Part shown: positions 45,603 to 54,056 of the stretch, one piece after another
Layout: the number at the start of each line of letters is the position of its first letter
Position numbering within the stretch: the stretch's first letter is position 1
Assembly: GCA_016181895.1 (NCBI GenBank)
Contig: JACOYL010000012.1
Coordinates: 1 to 59,069 of the forward strand
DNA from: Candidatus Pacearchaeota archaeon
GTDB lineage: Archaea > Nanobdellota > Nanobdellia > Pacearchaeales > GW2011-AR1
Direction of reading: 5' to 3'
DNA: 59,069 bases
Translations under genes and position numbers: made by a program
Notes under the pieces: generated by a model
The model's database searches: none
The model's input: only the letters and a program-made list of their open reading frames with translations
What the model was told of the DNA's origin: nothing

Positions 45603-46670
45603 TTATTCATAAAACTCGATTCCCAATTCGTCTTCCATTTCCCGATGCTTTATGCCTTCAATGTCGTCGCTGCTTCCGAGAATCTGGGAACTTTTCACTC
45701 CCGTGACAATGAGAAGAACGCGCATCGAGCGGTCCATGTCGGGAGAAATTTGCGCGCCCCAAATTAACTTGGCTTCCGGAGACAATTTTTTTCCGATTTG
45801 TTCTATCACGACTTTGCATTCGTCAAGAGACATGTCGTTTCCTCCGACGATGTTTATCAAAGCGCCTGTCGCTCCAGAAATGTCGACGTCAAGAAGAGGA
45901 TTTTTTATCGCCCTTTCAACAGACTCGAAAGCCCTGTTTGTAGAATCAGCTTCGCCCATGCCAATCAGTGAAACGCCGCCGTCTGCCATAATTGCTTTTA
46001 TGTCCGCGAAATCCAGATTTACAAGTCCTGTTGTTGTTATCAATTCTGTTATTCCTTTTACAGCGTTTGTCAAAATCTCGTCTGCAATCTTGAAAGCTGT
46101 TTGCAGGGGCAAATCGGGAGCCAATTCAAGAAGCTTGTCGTTTGGAATCACAATCAATGTATCGACGATTGATTCCATTTTTTCCAATCCGTTTTGCGCG
46201 TTTTCAATTCTTTTTCTTCCCTCAATCGTGAAAGGCAAAGTAACAACGCCGATTATCAAAGCCCCTTGTTTTTTTGCAATGCTTGAAATCACGGGAGCCG
46301 CGCCTGTTCCTGTTCCTCCGCCCAAGCCGCAGGTAATGAACATCATGTCGCTTCCGGAAAGCCTTTTTTTTATCTCCGACTCCGATTCCTTTGCCGCTTC
46401 CTCGCCGATTTTCGGATTGCTTCCCGCGCCAAGCCCCTGAGTCAATTCCTTTCCAATGAGAATTTTCACGTCGGCGTTCGTGTAAAGCAAATCCTGGGCG
46501 TCTGTGTTAACGGCAATCAATTCTCCCCCTTTGATTCCTATTTCCTTCATCCTGTTCAAAGAATTGTTTCCTCCGCCGCCGACACCTATAATCTTAATCT
46601 TTGCCGACTGTTTCTTCAAAAGCTCTTCAAGCTGCCTGTCAACATCCCCAACATCAGAACCATCTTCCAT
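45603..46670 (-). CDS. ftsZ: Cell division GTPase FtsZ
   Basis: The ATG at 46670 is preferred to a GTG at 46685, giving 355 residues. Marks of FtsZ: KIKIIGVGGGGNNSLNRM (residues 25-42), the tubulin signature GLGGGTGTGAAP (115-126), VVTLPFTIEGRKRIENAQNG and the T7 loop VNLDFADIKAIM with its Asp residues for GTP hydrolysis. It polymerises at midcell with SepF. The C-terminal tail (GIKHREMEDELGIEFYE) is a likely SepF-binding peptide. A minus-strand TATA box at 46691-46701 lies about 25 bases upstream, so the mRNA is leaderless. Confidence 0.95.
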   Translation of the reverse strand: MEDGSDVGDVDRQLEELLKKQSAKIKIIGVGGGGNNSLNRMKEIGIKGGELIAVNTDAQDLLYTNADVKILIGKELTQGLGAGSNPKIGEEAAKESESEIKKRLSGSDMMFITCGLGGGTGTGAAPVISSIAKKQGALIIGVVTLPFTIEGRKRIENAQNGLEKMESIVDTLIVIPNDKLLELAPDLPLQTAFKIADEILTNAVKGITELITTTGLVNLDFADIKAIMADGGVSLIGMGEADSTNRAFESVERAIKNPLLDVDISGATGALINIVGGNDMSLDECKVVIEQIGKKLSPEAKLIWGAQISPDMDRSMRVLLIVTGVKSSQILGSSDDIEGIKHREMEDELGIEFYE

Positions 46671-46690
46671 TAAAACAAAAATCACGGGCT

Positions 46691-46701
46691 GTTTATAAAA
46701 A
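46691..46701 (-). promoter_or_regulatory. ftsZ TATA box
   Basis: TTTTTATAAAC on the minus strand, about 25 bases before the chosen ATG at 46670. The spacing supports that ATG rather than the upstream GTG at 46685. Confidence 0.55.
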
Positions 46702-46714
46702 TTGTTGTGATTTT

Positions 46715-47386
46715 TTAATTTGGATTCTTGGTTTTTTCCTTTTCCTTTTTTTCCTCTTTATTTTCCTCCTCAACAAACAATTCCAATCCGAGAATTTCCT
46801 TGAACTTGTCCGCAAACAGATTTACAAACTCCACAAGATTTTTTTCTGCGTTTAAGACAATTTTTTCGCCGCTTATTTCAAATTTCAAATCCTTTCGAAA
46901 AAGAAAATCAATGAAAGATTTTGCCTTTTCATTTATGTCGTCGATTTTTCTCAGCACGTTCAAATCATAAACAACTGTTTTTCCCGCAATCGGGTTGTTG
47001 AAATCCGCGATGATTCTGCCGCCGGAAACAGAAAGGATTTTTGCAATCCTGCCGTCGAAGTTGAACATTATCCCCGGAATCGGTTTAAGATTTTGTTCCC
47101 TGAAAATCCGGGATGGAATTATCTGAATCAGTTTTGAATTTCTTTGCCCGAAGGCCTCTTCAGGTTTGAGTTCAATTTGGTATTTTCCGACGCCTTTTCC
47201 CATGAGAAAATCGTCAATGCCTTTAAGGAACATTCCTGCTCCGAGGGAAAAAATCAACGGCTTTGGTTCAATGTTGAGATTTGATTTTTTCAAATCCTCC
47301 TTTATGTTTGAATCAAATATCTCATTTGTATTCTTGACTTTCGCGGTGAATTCGACTTCAACAAAATCATTTTTTTTCAATTCCAT
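46715..47386 (-). CDS. FKBP-type peptidyl-prolyl isomerase (SlyD-like)
   Basis: A 223-residue protein. Residues 1-150 are FKBP with an IF-domain insert: KKNDFVEVEFTAKVKNTNEI, FDSN, LGAGMFLKGIDDFLMGKGVG, KYQIELKPEEAFG, the flap RNSKLIQIIP, then FNFDGRIAKILSVSGGRIIA and DFNNPIAGKTVVYDL. The C-terminal 70 residues form a mostly helical tail ending in a Lys/Glu run (EENKEEKKEKEKTKN). It is a ribosome-near folding helper that isomerises prolyl bonds. The TATA region at 47404-47418 can serve both this gene and the truncated aIF5A copy on the opposite strand. Confidence 0.88.
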   Translation of the reverse strand: MELKKNDFVEVEFTAKVKNTNEIFDSNIKEDLKKSNLNIEPKPLIFSLGAGMFLKGIDDFLMGKGVGKYQIELKPEEAFGQRNSKLIQIIPSRIFREQNLKPIPGIMFNFDGRIAKILSVSGGRIIADFNNPIAGKTVVYDLNVLRKIDDINEKAKSFIDFLFRKDLKFEISGEKIVLNAEKNLVEFVNLFADKFKEILGLELFVEEENKEEKKEKEKTKNPN

Positions 47387-47436
47387 TAGAACTTTTAATG
47401 GAAAACGTTTATAAATTTAATTTTTTTGGTTGGAGG

Positions 47437-47511
47437 ATGGTTTTAAAGATTATTAATGCAACAGAGGCGAAATCCGGGACTAATATCATTATCGACGGAG
47501 TCGCTTATTAA
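47437..47511 (+). pseudogene. Truncated 5' fragment of a second aIF5A gene
   Basis: A 24-codon frame (MVLKIINATEAKSGTN then IIIDGVAY, stop) aligns with the first 24 residues of the intact aIF5A at 48311, with 18 of 24 identical. It has its own TATA box (GTTTATAAATTTAA) about 25 bases upstream. It breaks off right after the Tyr24 codon, exactly where the convergent rRNA methyltransferase gene begins; the two stop codons overlap. It lacks the hypusine loop, so it is non-functional. It may mark the original aIF5A site interrupted by an insertion. Confidence 0.85.
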
Positions 47512-48248
47512 ACAATTTTTCCTTCCTGACGAACTTTCTCATAAATAACAATTGCAGCACTAATACCTACATTAAGTGAATCAATACCCTGACGCATAGG
47601 AATAGACAACTTCTTATCGCATTTTTTTGATACTTCCTCTGATAATCCCTTGCCTTCGGCTCCCAAAACAAAAGCAATAGGACCAGAAAGATTTTCTTTA
47701 AATATAGATTCACCATCCATTTGAATAGAAAAAATTTTTGTACTGGTTTTTTTAAGTTCCTTTATGGCTTGAAAAATATTCATTTTTACAAGCGGGATTC
47801 TAGCAATTGTTCCGACAGAAAGATGGAGCGTTTCTTCATTAATAAATTGATTTTCATCTCCTTGAAAGATTATCCCATTCACACCGGCAGCAAAGGCAGT
47901 TCTGGCAATAATCCCGATATTGCTTTCATAATTAATTTTATTGAGTAGTAAGAAGAACGGTTTTTTATCAGTCTCATTTAGAGAATCTAATAGTTTTTTA
48001 AGAGACCAAGTATCCTGCCAAACTAAAAACCCAACTAAAACTTCCCTACTTTGCCCACTTCTTCCTTTTACCATTTTTTTGAAGGACATCTTATTAATAG
48101 GCACTCTTCTTTTCATTGCTATAGAAACAATCTCTTTTGTTAAATTATCTTGTTTTAGATTATCAACTAAAGTAATTTTTTCAAAATTAGCACCGCTTTT
48201 CAAAAGCTCTAATATTGCATTTTTATTTCTTATTTTTAATGTTTTCAT
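47508..48248 (-). CDS. TrmH/SpoU-family RNA 2'-O-ribose methyltransferase
   Basis: A 246-residue protein. The N-terminal substrate-binding domain runs KNAILELLKSGANFEKITLV and RVPINKMSFKKMVKGRSGQ. The SPOUT core has the three motifs INYESNIGIIARTA (motif 1), GPIAFVLGAEGKGLSEEVSK (motif 2) and LSIPMRQGIDSLNVGISAAI (motif 3, the knot). It is most like RlmB/TrmH enzymes that methylate guanosine in 23S rRNA or tRNA. Its AT-rich codons differ from neighbours. It lies between a truncated and a complete aIF5A gene on the opposite strand, which suggests it arrived with the second copy. Confidence 0.9.
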   Translation of the reverse strand: MKTLKIRNKNAILELLKSGANFEKITLVDNLKQDNLTKEIVSIAMKRRVPINKMSFKKMVKGRSGQSREVLVGFLVWQDTWSLKKLLDSLNETDKKPFFLLLNKINYESNIGIIARTAFAAGVNGIIFQGDENQFINEETLHLSVGTIARIPLVKMNIFQAIKELKKTSTKIFSIQMDGESIFKENLSGPIAFVLGAEGKGLSEEVSKKCDKKLSIPMRQGIDSLNVGISAAIVIYEKVRQEGKIV

Positions 48249-48310
48249 TGTTTGTGATAATGTTATGGAATTTTAAAAACTTTTATAAATGTAATCTTTT
48301 TGTTTAATTT

Positions 48311-48697
48311 ATGGTTTTAAAATTAATAATAGCCACTCATGCAAAACCAGGAACAAATATCATTATCGAAGGAGTTTCATATACCGTAAGAAGTAATGAC
48401 ATCTCCAAAACAGGAAAGCACGGAGCGTCAAAATGCAGGATAGAAGCGATAGGAATAATATCCGGACAGAAAAAAATAATAGTTGTTCCAGGGCATGAAA
48501 GATTTGAAGTTCCCCTCGTCGAGAAAAAAAAAGCGCAGGTTTTATCAATAGGAGACAACGTCAGCGTCATGGATTTGGAAAGTTTTGAAACCCTTGATGT
48601 CCCGTGTGACAATGAATTGAAAGAACAAATTCAGGAAGGCTCTAATGTTGAATACTGGAATGTTGAAGGAGAAAAAATAATCAAGAGAAAATTATGA
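48311..48697 (+). CDS. eif5a: Translation initiation factor aIF5A
   Basis: A 128-residue protein. The N-terminal barrel carries DISKTGKHGASKCRIEAIGI (residues 31-50), with Lys37 of GKHG as the hypusine site. The S1-like C-terminal domain has VEKKKAQVLSIGDNVSVMDL. It binds the ribosome and relieves stalls at proline stretches. The start has a TATA box (CTTTTATAAATG) about 25 bases upstream. It is the intact counterpart of the 24-codon fragment at 47437, 800 bases away. Confidence 0.93.
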   Translation: MVLKLIIATHAKPGTNIIIEGVSYTVRSNDISKTGKHGASKCRIEAIGIISGQKKIIVVPGHERFEVPLVEKKKAQVLSIGDNVSVMDLESFETLDVPCDNELKEQIQEGSNVEYWNVEGEKIIKRKL

Positions 48698-48828
48698 TTA
48701 TTCGATAAGAAATATTTAGTTAAAGAGGATGAGAGATTAATGTGATCTCTTGGCTTATTATTAAATTGTAAATGGATTGTAAAAATATAACTGAAAAGCC
48801 TTAAAAACTATTTTTATCTAAACTAATC

Positions 48829-48990
48829 ATGGCAAAAATACCAGAGGCAACAAACAGGCTTTTCAGGAACGTGTTTGTATGCAAGAGCTGCAGCGCGAAA
48901 ATAAGGGCGGAGCCCCTGAAAATACTCGCCGGAAAAGTTAAATGCAGGAAGTGCAAGAAAAAATCCTTCCGTCCGATAAAAAAGAAGTAA
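48829..48990 (+). CDS. rpl40e: Ribosomal protein L40e (eL40)
   Basis: A 53-residue protein: MAKIPEATNRLFRNVFVCKS, then CSAKIRAEPLKILAGKVKCR and KCKKKSFRPIKKK. Four cysteines (CKSC, CRKC) form the zinc site. Its size and basic sequence are standard. It is a large-subunit protein found in archaea and, fused to ubiquitin, in eukaryotes. It stands alone, with a TATA-like CTTAAAAACTA about 25 bases upstream. Confidence 0.9.
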   Translation: MAKIPEATNRLFRNVFVCKSCSAKIRAEPLKILAGKVKCRKCKKKSFRPIKKK

Positions 48991-49090
48991 AACTTCATGT
49001 TTCCCTCATAAATTCGATAAAAAGTAAAACAGGAAATTTTACAAGTTTCCTTCATAAATTCAGGAAAAAGAAATAAAAACAAAAAGAAAA

Positions 49091-50524
49091 ATGAATTTTA
49101 ACAGCATCTACGTGTATGACGTGACTTTCCTCGTCGTGTTTGCCGCATTTGTCTCGTATTTCCTTTACACGAGAAGGCACAACCTGAAAAGAGAAGGACT
49201 TTTGTTTTTGTACAAGGCGGGCTGGGGGATAAAATTAATCGACAAAGTCGGGAACAGGTACAAAAAAACCCTCGGTATTTTGAGTTATCTTTCAATAATC
49301 ACGGGATATATTTTGATGGTTGCAATGTTTTATCTTCTTGGAAAAATTGTTTATCTTTATGTCGCTTTTCCCGCAATCGTGAGAGAGATAAAAATTCCGC
49401 CGATAACGCCTTTAATCCCATACCTGCCGCAGGTTTTCCAGCTTGATTTTCTGCCGCCGTTTTATTTCACTTACTGGATTGTAATCATCGCAATAATCGC
49501 AATCTCGCACGAATTTTCCCATGGAATTTTCGCGGCTTACGACAAGATAAAAATAAAATCAACAGGCTTCGGATTTTTCCCTTTCTTTCTGCCTATATTT
49601 CTTGCCGCCTTCGTTGAATTGGACGAGAAAAACATGGCCAAGAAAAAAATCAAAAGTCAATTGGCGATTCTTTCCGCGGGAACTTTTGCAAACGTCCTTA
49701 CTGCCGTGTTGTTTTTCGGAGTCTTGTGGATTTTTTTTACCTCCGCTTTCGCGCCTTCGGGAATTATTTTTGACACTTATCCTTATGCATCTATTGCAAT
49801 TTCAAGCATTACTTCTGTCAACGGAATTCCAGTGAACAATCCAAACAACGACGCGGTTCTCGGATTGATGAATGATGAAGGATTGAACAAAATGGAAGCA
49901 GGAAAGGATTTCGTGACGACAAAGAAATTTTTCGAAGAGCAAAAAAACAACGGGCAAATCATTGTTTATTACGACGCGCCGGCGATAAACGCGGAACTTG
50001 AAAGAATAATCTTGAAAATAAACGGCAAAGAAACGACTAGCATTGATTCAATTGAAAAAGAAATCCTGAATCATGCCCCCGGAGACAAGATAACCCTTAC
50101 TTTGCTCAATAAAGACGGAGAAAGTTACGACAAAGACATCGTCCTTGGGGAAAACCCCGGGGAAAACGGGAAGGCGTGGCTCGGCATAGGATTCACGCAG
50201 CAACGAACATCAGGGGTTTTGGGAAAAATTTATCTGGCTTTGTCGTCGTTCAAAAAACAGGGAATTTATTACGAGCCGAAATTCGACGGCATAAGCGTTT
50301 TCATTTACAATCTTCTGTGGTGGCTGGTTCTCATCAGCATAAGCGTGGCTTTGGTTAACATGCTTCCCGTCGGAATCTTCGACGGCGGGAGATTTTTCTA
50401 TCTTACAATTCTCGGGCTGACAAAAAACGAAAAAAAAGCCAAGAGTTTGTTCTCTTTGATGACATATTTCATACTTTTTTTGGTTTTCGTGCTCATGATT
50501 TTCTGGGCAGTCTCATTTTTCTGA
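49091..50524 (+). CDS. Site-2 protease family zinc metalloprotease (M50) with PDZ-like region
   Basis: A 477-residue membrane protein. HEFSHG at residues 140-145 (HExxH) in a membrane helix and LVNMLPVGIFDGGRF near residues 430-445 (N-x-x-P-x-x-x-x-DGG) supply the zinc ligands. Between them are membrane helices and a periplasmic PDZ-like domain (ISSITSVNGIPVNNPNNDA, LNHAPGDKITLTLLNKDGES). The enzyme cuts transmembrane segments of other proteins, often as part of stress signalling. Only the HEFSH site and the C-terminal DGG are needed to place it. Two 30-base direct repeats lie just upstream (49000-49070). Confidence 0.9.
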   Translation: MNFNSIYVYDVTFLVVFAAFVSYFLYTRRHNLKREGLLFLYKAGWGIKLIDKVGNRYKKTLGILSYLSIITGYILMVAMFYLLGKIVYLYVAFPAIVREIKIPPITPLIPYLPQVFQLDFLPPFYFTYWIVIIAIIAISHEFSHGIFAAYDKIKIKSTGFGFFPFFLPIFLAAFVELDEKNMAKKKIKSQLAILSAGTFANVLTAVLFFGVLWIFFTSAFAPSGIIFDTYPYASIAISSITSVNGIPVNNPNNDAVLGLMNDEGLNKMEAGKDFVTTKKFFEEQKNNGQIIVYYDAPAINAELERIILKINGKETTSIDSIEKEILNHAPGDKITLTLLNKDGESYDKDIVLGENPGENGKAWLGIGFTQQRTSGVLGKIYLALSSFKKQGIYYEPKFDGISVFIYNLLWWLVLISISVALVNMLPVGIFDGGRFFYLTILGLTKNEKKAKSLFSLMTYFILFLVFVLMIFWAVSFF

Positions 50525-50593
50525 GAAAAAATTAAATTATCAAAAGATATTTAAACTAAATTTCCATAATATAATAAATAAAAAGGGGTTAAA

Positions 50594-50671
50594 ATGGCAA
50601 AAAGAAAAAAAACAACAAAGAGGAAGGCAACAAGAAAGAAAACTTCCACAAAAAGAAAGAAAAGAAGATAA
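50594..50671 (+). CDS. Tiny Lys/Arg/Thr-only basic protein (25 residues)
   Basis: MAKRKKTTKRKATRKKTSTK then RKKRR. It uses only K, R, T, A, S and M, so it is the most basic protein in the window. A GGGGTT ribosome-binding-like stretch precedes the ATG, and a T-rich terminator-like tract (50672-50735) follows, so it looks like a real, independent gene. Such peptides could bind DNA or RNA and act like a minimal histone-tail or chromatin protein. The sequence is too short for a family call. Confidence 0.5.
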   Translation: MAKRKKTTKRKATRKKTSTKRKKRR

Positions 50672-53983: not shown

Positions 53984-54056
53984 AGCCTCAGGCAGGATTT
54001 GAACCTGCGACCCCAACTTTACGAAAGTTGTGCTCTGCCGACTGAGCTACTGAGGC
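53984..54056 (-). tRNA. tRNA-Thr (CGT)
   Basis: On the minus strand, GCCTCAG pairs with CTGAGGC, with discriminator T. The D-arm is GCTC-AGTCGGCA-GAGC. The anticodon arm is CAACT-TTCGTAA-AGTTG with anticodon CGT. The T-arm is GCAGG-TTCAAAT-CCTGC. There is no intron. U73 agrees with archaeal tRNA-Thr. Confidence 0.93.

Follow-up and report, generated by a model that had tools for sequence, protein, structure and literature searches.

The locus described here lies in a contig of a Candidatus Pacearchaeota archaeon, of which we analyzed the whole stretch of 59,069 nucleotides, referred to below as the window. Its features are as follows.

46715-47386, minus strand: gene for an FKBP-type peptidyl-prolyl isomerase (Pfam FKBP26_IF, E 2.2e-12; FKBP_C, E 2.1e-8)
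47408-47415, no strand assigned: palindromic TATA box TTTATAAA, at a computed position, candidate bidirectional promoter
47437-47511, plus strand: 5' end left over from the resident aIF5A gene, 24 codons and a stop codon created at the junction
47508-48248, minus strand: inserted gene for an RlmB-like 2'-O-methyltransferase of the SpoU/TrmH family, 246 aa, convergent with the fragment
48271-48278, minus strand: TTTTAAAA box, centre 26 bp from the methyltransferase ATG, putatively that gene's own promoter
48282-48289, plus strand: TTTATAAA box, centre 25 bp upstream of the ATG of the intact aIF5A, putative new promoter
48311-48697, plus strand: intact aIF5A gene, 128 aa (TIGR00037), the first ~38 codons probably incoming and the remainder probably resident
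47509-48424, no strand assigned: putative incoming segment with the methyltransferase, a promoter and ~38 aIF5A codons, its left edge good to within a few bases and its right edge approximate
48829-48990, plus strand: gene which we take to encode ribosomal protein L40e, conserved right flank by synteny
49091-50524, plus strand: presumably a site-2-protease-like gene, conserved right flank by synteny

The sequence-only reading of this DNA had described a 24-codon 5' fragment of aIF5A, 18 of its 24 residues identical to the intact copy, which abuts the stop codon of a convergent SpoU-type gene and is followed, just past that gene, by a full aIF5A with a similar promoter. The translations and coordinates agree with it on each of these points. 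The reading frame of the fragment starts with the ATG at 47437 and runs for 24 sense codons to a TAA at 47509-47511, its stop codon and that of the methyltransferase overlapping within TTAA, and its residues differ from those of the intact protein at positions 5, 7, 10, 13, 20 and 23. Beyond the methyltransferase, 62 bp with the TTTTAAAA and TTTATAAA boxes separate that gene from the intact aIF5A, and a TTTATAAA box stands 25 bp from each of the two aIF5A start codons. The two 5' ends form an ungapped direct repeat of 107 nt that is 74% identical (47402-47508 versus 48276-48382) and extends from the TATA region through codon 24. The intact protein scores above the cut-off of TIGR00037 (102 bits; cut-off 75.45) and below that of NF003076 (129.3 bits; cut-off 138). 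A search of its own genome with this protein returned the full copy (E 9.6e-82), the fragment (E 1.8e-4) and nothing further, the intact gene being the sole full copy in that genome. The 24-residue piece gave no match in a Pfam search and is recognised solely by its similarity to the intact copy and to relatives; because no family model recognises it, we call it a fragment and not a gene. No Rfam match was found in 46000-50600.

We compared the surroundings of aIF5A at 126 distinct loci, the window included, which are those with a usable aIF5A start and include part of the 173 matching family genomes. FKBP lies divergently upstream of aIF5A in 115 of the 126; the other 11, in which the available stretch shows no divergent FKBP upstream, were excluded from the gap counts. 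The uninterrupted FKBP-aIF5A pair that had been sought in relatives is present in 76 of the 115 loci (gap of 130 bp or less), though not in the sister genome, which has an insertion of its own; the gap measures 131-400 bp in 6 loci and more than 400 bp in 33. Every one of the 49 compact loci (gap of 40-65 bp; for example L048, L181 and L044) carries the TTTATAAA box; the distances from its centre to the FKBP and aIF5A starts are most often 25/25 bp (15 loci) or 26/25 bp (10 loci). The left side of the window shows this same compact layout, with exactly 50 bp between FKBP and the fragment (47387-47436), the ancestral length, and the box at 25/25, and for this reason we place the fragment at the old position of the resident aIF5A.

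A palindromic box equidistant from two start codons would be expected where one promoter gives rise to leaderless transcripts in both directions, and the conserved TTTATAAA box probably serves FKBP and aIF5A in this way. In Pyrococcus, a single TATA box has been reported to direct transcription both ways in vitro, with start sites 49 bp apart (PMC6640164). The candidate promoter resembles the cases described there in having a symmetric TATA box and starts about 49-50 bp apart, whereas those cases concern antisense transcripts and were demonstrated, and ours concerns a conserved pair of protein genes and is deduced from sequence (PMC6640164).

The 39 of 115 loci with a gap above 130 bp (the window and 38 others) hold varied open reading frames, one to five where listed and mostly unlike each other (L117, L046, L072, L043, L081 and others), and in three of the wide-gap loci aIF5A is directly preceded by Lrp-type regulators that look alike. 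An integration hotspot in the FKBP-aIF5A gap was considered and set aside, as no second stub was found among the wide-gap loci scanned. Elsewhere, genome G296 carries two full-length aIF5A genes (C13:3292-3675 and C32:28183-28563, 58% and 60% identical to that of the window), which represent either a genuine second gene or contamination of the bin.

Within the genus, the comparison covers the genome of the window and one sister genome, G001. The sister has the gene order of the window (FtsZ, FKBP, aIF5A, L40e, protease), and neither a match to the methyltransferase nor an aIF5A fragment was found in it. Its FKBP-aIF5A gap holds a different insert, which encodes a 324-aa protein, presumably resembling an Lrp-type regulator, and a 247-aa protein of no recognised kind; this insert is independent of the one in the window. 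When the 39 wide-gap loci were scanned with their own aIF5A N-termini, the window scored 87 and the best of the other 38 scored 33, and none of those 38 contains a stub like the one in the window. The event is recent and specific to the lineage of the window: an old event had been allowed for beforehand, with relatives all carrying the fragment, the methyltransferase and aIF5A, and the sister carries neither of the first two. We consider it highly improbable that the arrangement arose when contigs of two strains were joined at aIF5A during assembly; the genome is a draft in 24 contigs, but the window contains no N, there is no repeat common to the fragment and the methyltransferase at the junction to mislead an assembler, and the genes to the left and to the right of the locus both resemble the same sister genome most. 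The 5' end of the sister's aIF5A (L117) is also compositionally odd, with a GC3 of 0.83 in codons 1-36 versus 0.47 in the remainder.

The fragment and the intact copy show 11 synonymous differences over 16.5 sites (pS 0.67) and 8 nonsynonymous differences over 55.5 sites (pN 0.144). If the fragment had drifted freely for half of the path between them, 27.8 nonsynonymous differences would be expected versus the 8 seen (P 4e-8); with drift for a quarter of the path P is 0.003, and for a tenth it is 0.57. As pN is low and pS high, we conclude that both 5' ends diverged inside two working genes and that the fragment was cut off late. This bears on the simple partial duplication that had been named beforehand as the alternative, by which the promoter and 5' end were doubled in place as the methyltransferase entered and the left copy has drifted since. 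The two copies do share the direct repeat of 107 nt, which ends at the junction, and in codons 15-24 they agree at 25 of 30 bases, versus 18-19 of 30 with the sister, by a count made by eye. The nonsynonymous count, which rejects a fragment drifting neutrally over half of the path, and the sister, which has the base of the fragment at 8 of the 19 differing positions and that of the intact copy at 1, both disfavour such a duplication, and we regard it as quite improbable.

The same 19 sites, most of which are third positions, divide evenly when judged by base frequencies in the near clade: 9 favour the fragment, among them the clearest (codons 5, 7 and 10), and 10 the intact copy. Over first and second positions the fragment differs from the near clade by a mean of 8.29, below the functional-gene mean of 9.48; the near and far groups were assigned according to the amino acid at position 29 of intact aIF5A and are not clean clades, because this residue undergoes at least 14 changes on the body tree. 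The region upstream of the fragment aligns with the promoter of the sister's aIF5A at a score of 40, versus 28 for that of the intact copy. Nor is the sister the closest match to the fragment, 20 of 123 other genes matching it better over the 24 residues. A tree of the 72 columns, on which the free search missed better trees, rejected no pairing (AU p 0.63 for fragment with intact copy, 0.79 for fragment with sister, 0.82 for intact copy with sister). The earlier statement that the fragment is nearer to core genes in codon use than the methyltransferase is right in direction, as judged over 24 codons: GC3 is 0.417 in the fragment, 0.424 in FKBP and 0.479 in FtsZ, versus 0.223 in the methyltransferase, and it is 0.167 in codons 1-24 of the intact aIF5A. 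The evidence supports the fragment as the 5' end of the resident gene itself.

The history proposed from the letters alone was that a segment with the methyltransferase and a whole second aIF5A replaced most of the resident gene. Its resident fragment, its recent event and the divergence of the two 5' ends as functional sequences stand, but the whole second aIF5A is not supported: over codons 37-128 the intact gene has its closest counterpart in the sister (84% identity), with which it also pairs in the tree at an SH-aLRT of 89, under the starred level. Since this is what would be expected of resident sequence, it is likelier that only the promoter and about 38 codons were replaced. Codons 1-24 share 62% identity with the sister and have better matches in 25 other genes. 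In a breakpoint scan against position-expected identity the shift came after codon 38, within the conserved stretch SKTGKHG, with a z of 1.48 and a permutation p of 0.0004. Calibration makes this signal weaker: of 74 control gene pairs, 3 reached an equal z and 5 a permutation p of 0.001, the breakpoints in the ten listed falling at codons 79-99 and none at 38, and the scan from the sister's side gave p 0.124. An equally dissimilar N-terminus occurred in 6 of 87 control pairs of similar body identity, and an equally poor N-terminal rank in 4 of 56 controls. The alignment of the aIF5A-L40e intergenic region with that of the sister scored -6 (shuffle mean -14.2, maximum 10), and because this lies within the shuffles the alignment does not demonstrate that the right flank is resident. 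These results are suggestive, not proof, that the intact aIF5A is probably a hybrid of a foreign promoter and ~38 codons with a resident rest.

A congeneric or near-genus donor might instead have supplied the methyltransferase together with a complete aIF5A. A donor of the same genus would likewise put the body of the protein closest to the sister, the arguments from recency and divergence apply equally, and the GC3 of codons 37-128 (0.348) lies between those of the methyltransferase (0.223) and FKBP (0.424). Replacement of the whole gene predicts, however, a 5' end as near to the sister as the rest, and the values are 62% versus 84%, a difference over 36 codons that is not decisive; we hold this course of events to be rather unlikely.

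The methyltransferase matches Pfam SpoU_methylase (E 1.3e-33) and SpoU_sub_bind (23.7 bits; cut-off 22.8), and it has the SpoU domain and N-terminal substrate-binding domain seen in RlmB, the 23S rRNA Gm2251 methyltransferase. Its best NCBIfam model is TIGR00186 (RlmB), and since the score of 139.4 bits is under the equivalog cut-off of 160.15 we name it RlmB-like and not RlmB. With the window counted, matches were found in 6 of 56 relatives (E 1e-3), 5 of 200 genomes of the order (1e-8) and 7 of 371 genomes of the phylum (1e-10), those other than its own being 25-38% identical; the best archaeal matches by E-value have 31% identity. The gene is absent from every other FKBP-aIF5A interval examined, and one Micrarchaeota locus (L080) has a distant methyltransferase (26%) downstream of aIF5A. 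As for a source, there was no match in viral_contigs and none in PHROGs, and all 102 plasmid and 56 phage records fall below 60% identity, with 33.1% and 33.7% the best among the matches listed. No donor for the intact N-terminus was found among 378 genomes of the class, where the best match listed reaches 77%.

The insert holds a single open reading frame, the methyltransferase, and no recombinase gene. Inverted pairs at the locus are imperfect (75-82%), and in the pair with one arm starting at the left junction (47506-47529) the second arm lies within aIF5A (48631-48654) and not at the end of the insert. The nearest tRNA gene, at 53984, is at least 5 kb from the insert. A transposon or integrative element is unlikely, because no recombinase, no inverted repeats at the insert ends and no tRNA gene within 5 kb were found. 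It is very improbable, in our estimate, that the insert belongs to a rare class of cassettes that insert at the 5' end of the aIF5A coding sequence and supply it again with a working promoter and start, with the stub, the 107-nt repeat and the abutment as its left end, a behavior that would resemble integrative elements restoring the end of the gene they enter.

We favor, with a probability of roughly 0.6, a history in which DNA of a related, unsampled archaeon created a hybrid gene by a homologous right junction and an illegitimate left junction, the stub being retained. The incoming DNA would have carried an RlmB-like methyltransferase gene divergent from an aIF5A gene and may have used the conserved stretch near codons 36-40 to pair with the resident gene. 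The left junction would have formed illegitimately, directly after resident codon 24 and at the stop codon of the methyltransferase, where no repeat was found beyond the 107-nt copy itself. Resident codons 25 to ~38 would have been lost, and the new aIF5A would consist of the incoming promoter and 5' end followed by the resident remainder. In Haloferax volcanii aIF5A is reported to be essential (PMC3828320), which would explain why solely an event that kept one working copy survived. The resident promoter and first 24 codons would have been left joined to FKBP, probably because the single palindromic TATA box also drives that gene; this box now probably serves FKBP, which would be the reason why the stub survives.

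Gene displacement in situ is the replacement of a resident gene by a xenologue at its own locus. The present case would share this feature, with the difference that the junction can still be seen, along with part of the gene that was displaced. Homology-facilitated illegitimate recombination has been described in bacterial transformation and conjugation (PMC3240628), and the proposed route is like the process described there in having one homologous junction, one junction without homology and foreign genes carried in; unlike those bacteria, ours is an uncultured archaeon, the route is read from DNA alone and the homologous junction is placed approximately. Such a route has also been proposed for displaced modules that leave remnants in the T6SS effector-immunity arrays of Vibrio (PMC5361080), where, as in the history proposed here, a new module displaces a resident gene and part of the old set stays alongside. 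The Vibrio arrays, as described in that source, concern accessory genes and repeated displacement, with downstream genes kept, whereas the window would record a single event at a gene with an essential homologue in Haloferax (PMC3828320), with a 5' stub kept. Our literature search on the mechanism and related terms found no report of this locus, which is not to deny that one exists elsewhere. Events of this kind are already known; what is new is that the remnant is so clear and that the symmetric promoter is conserved.

Conflict between trees is the usual evidence that a core translation gene has been replaced; here the junction and an undecayed remnant make the route readable. As read, this route is probably the formation of a hybrid gene within an essential locus. 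The TATA box shared by FKBP and aIF5A would give a concrete reason for the persistence of the stub, namely that the neighboring gene still needs its promoter.
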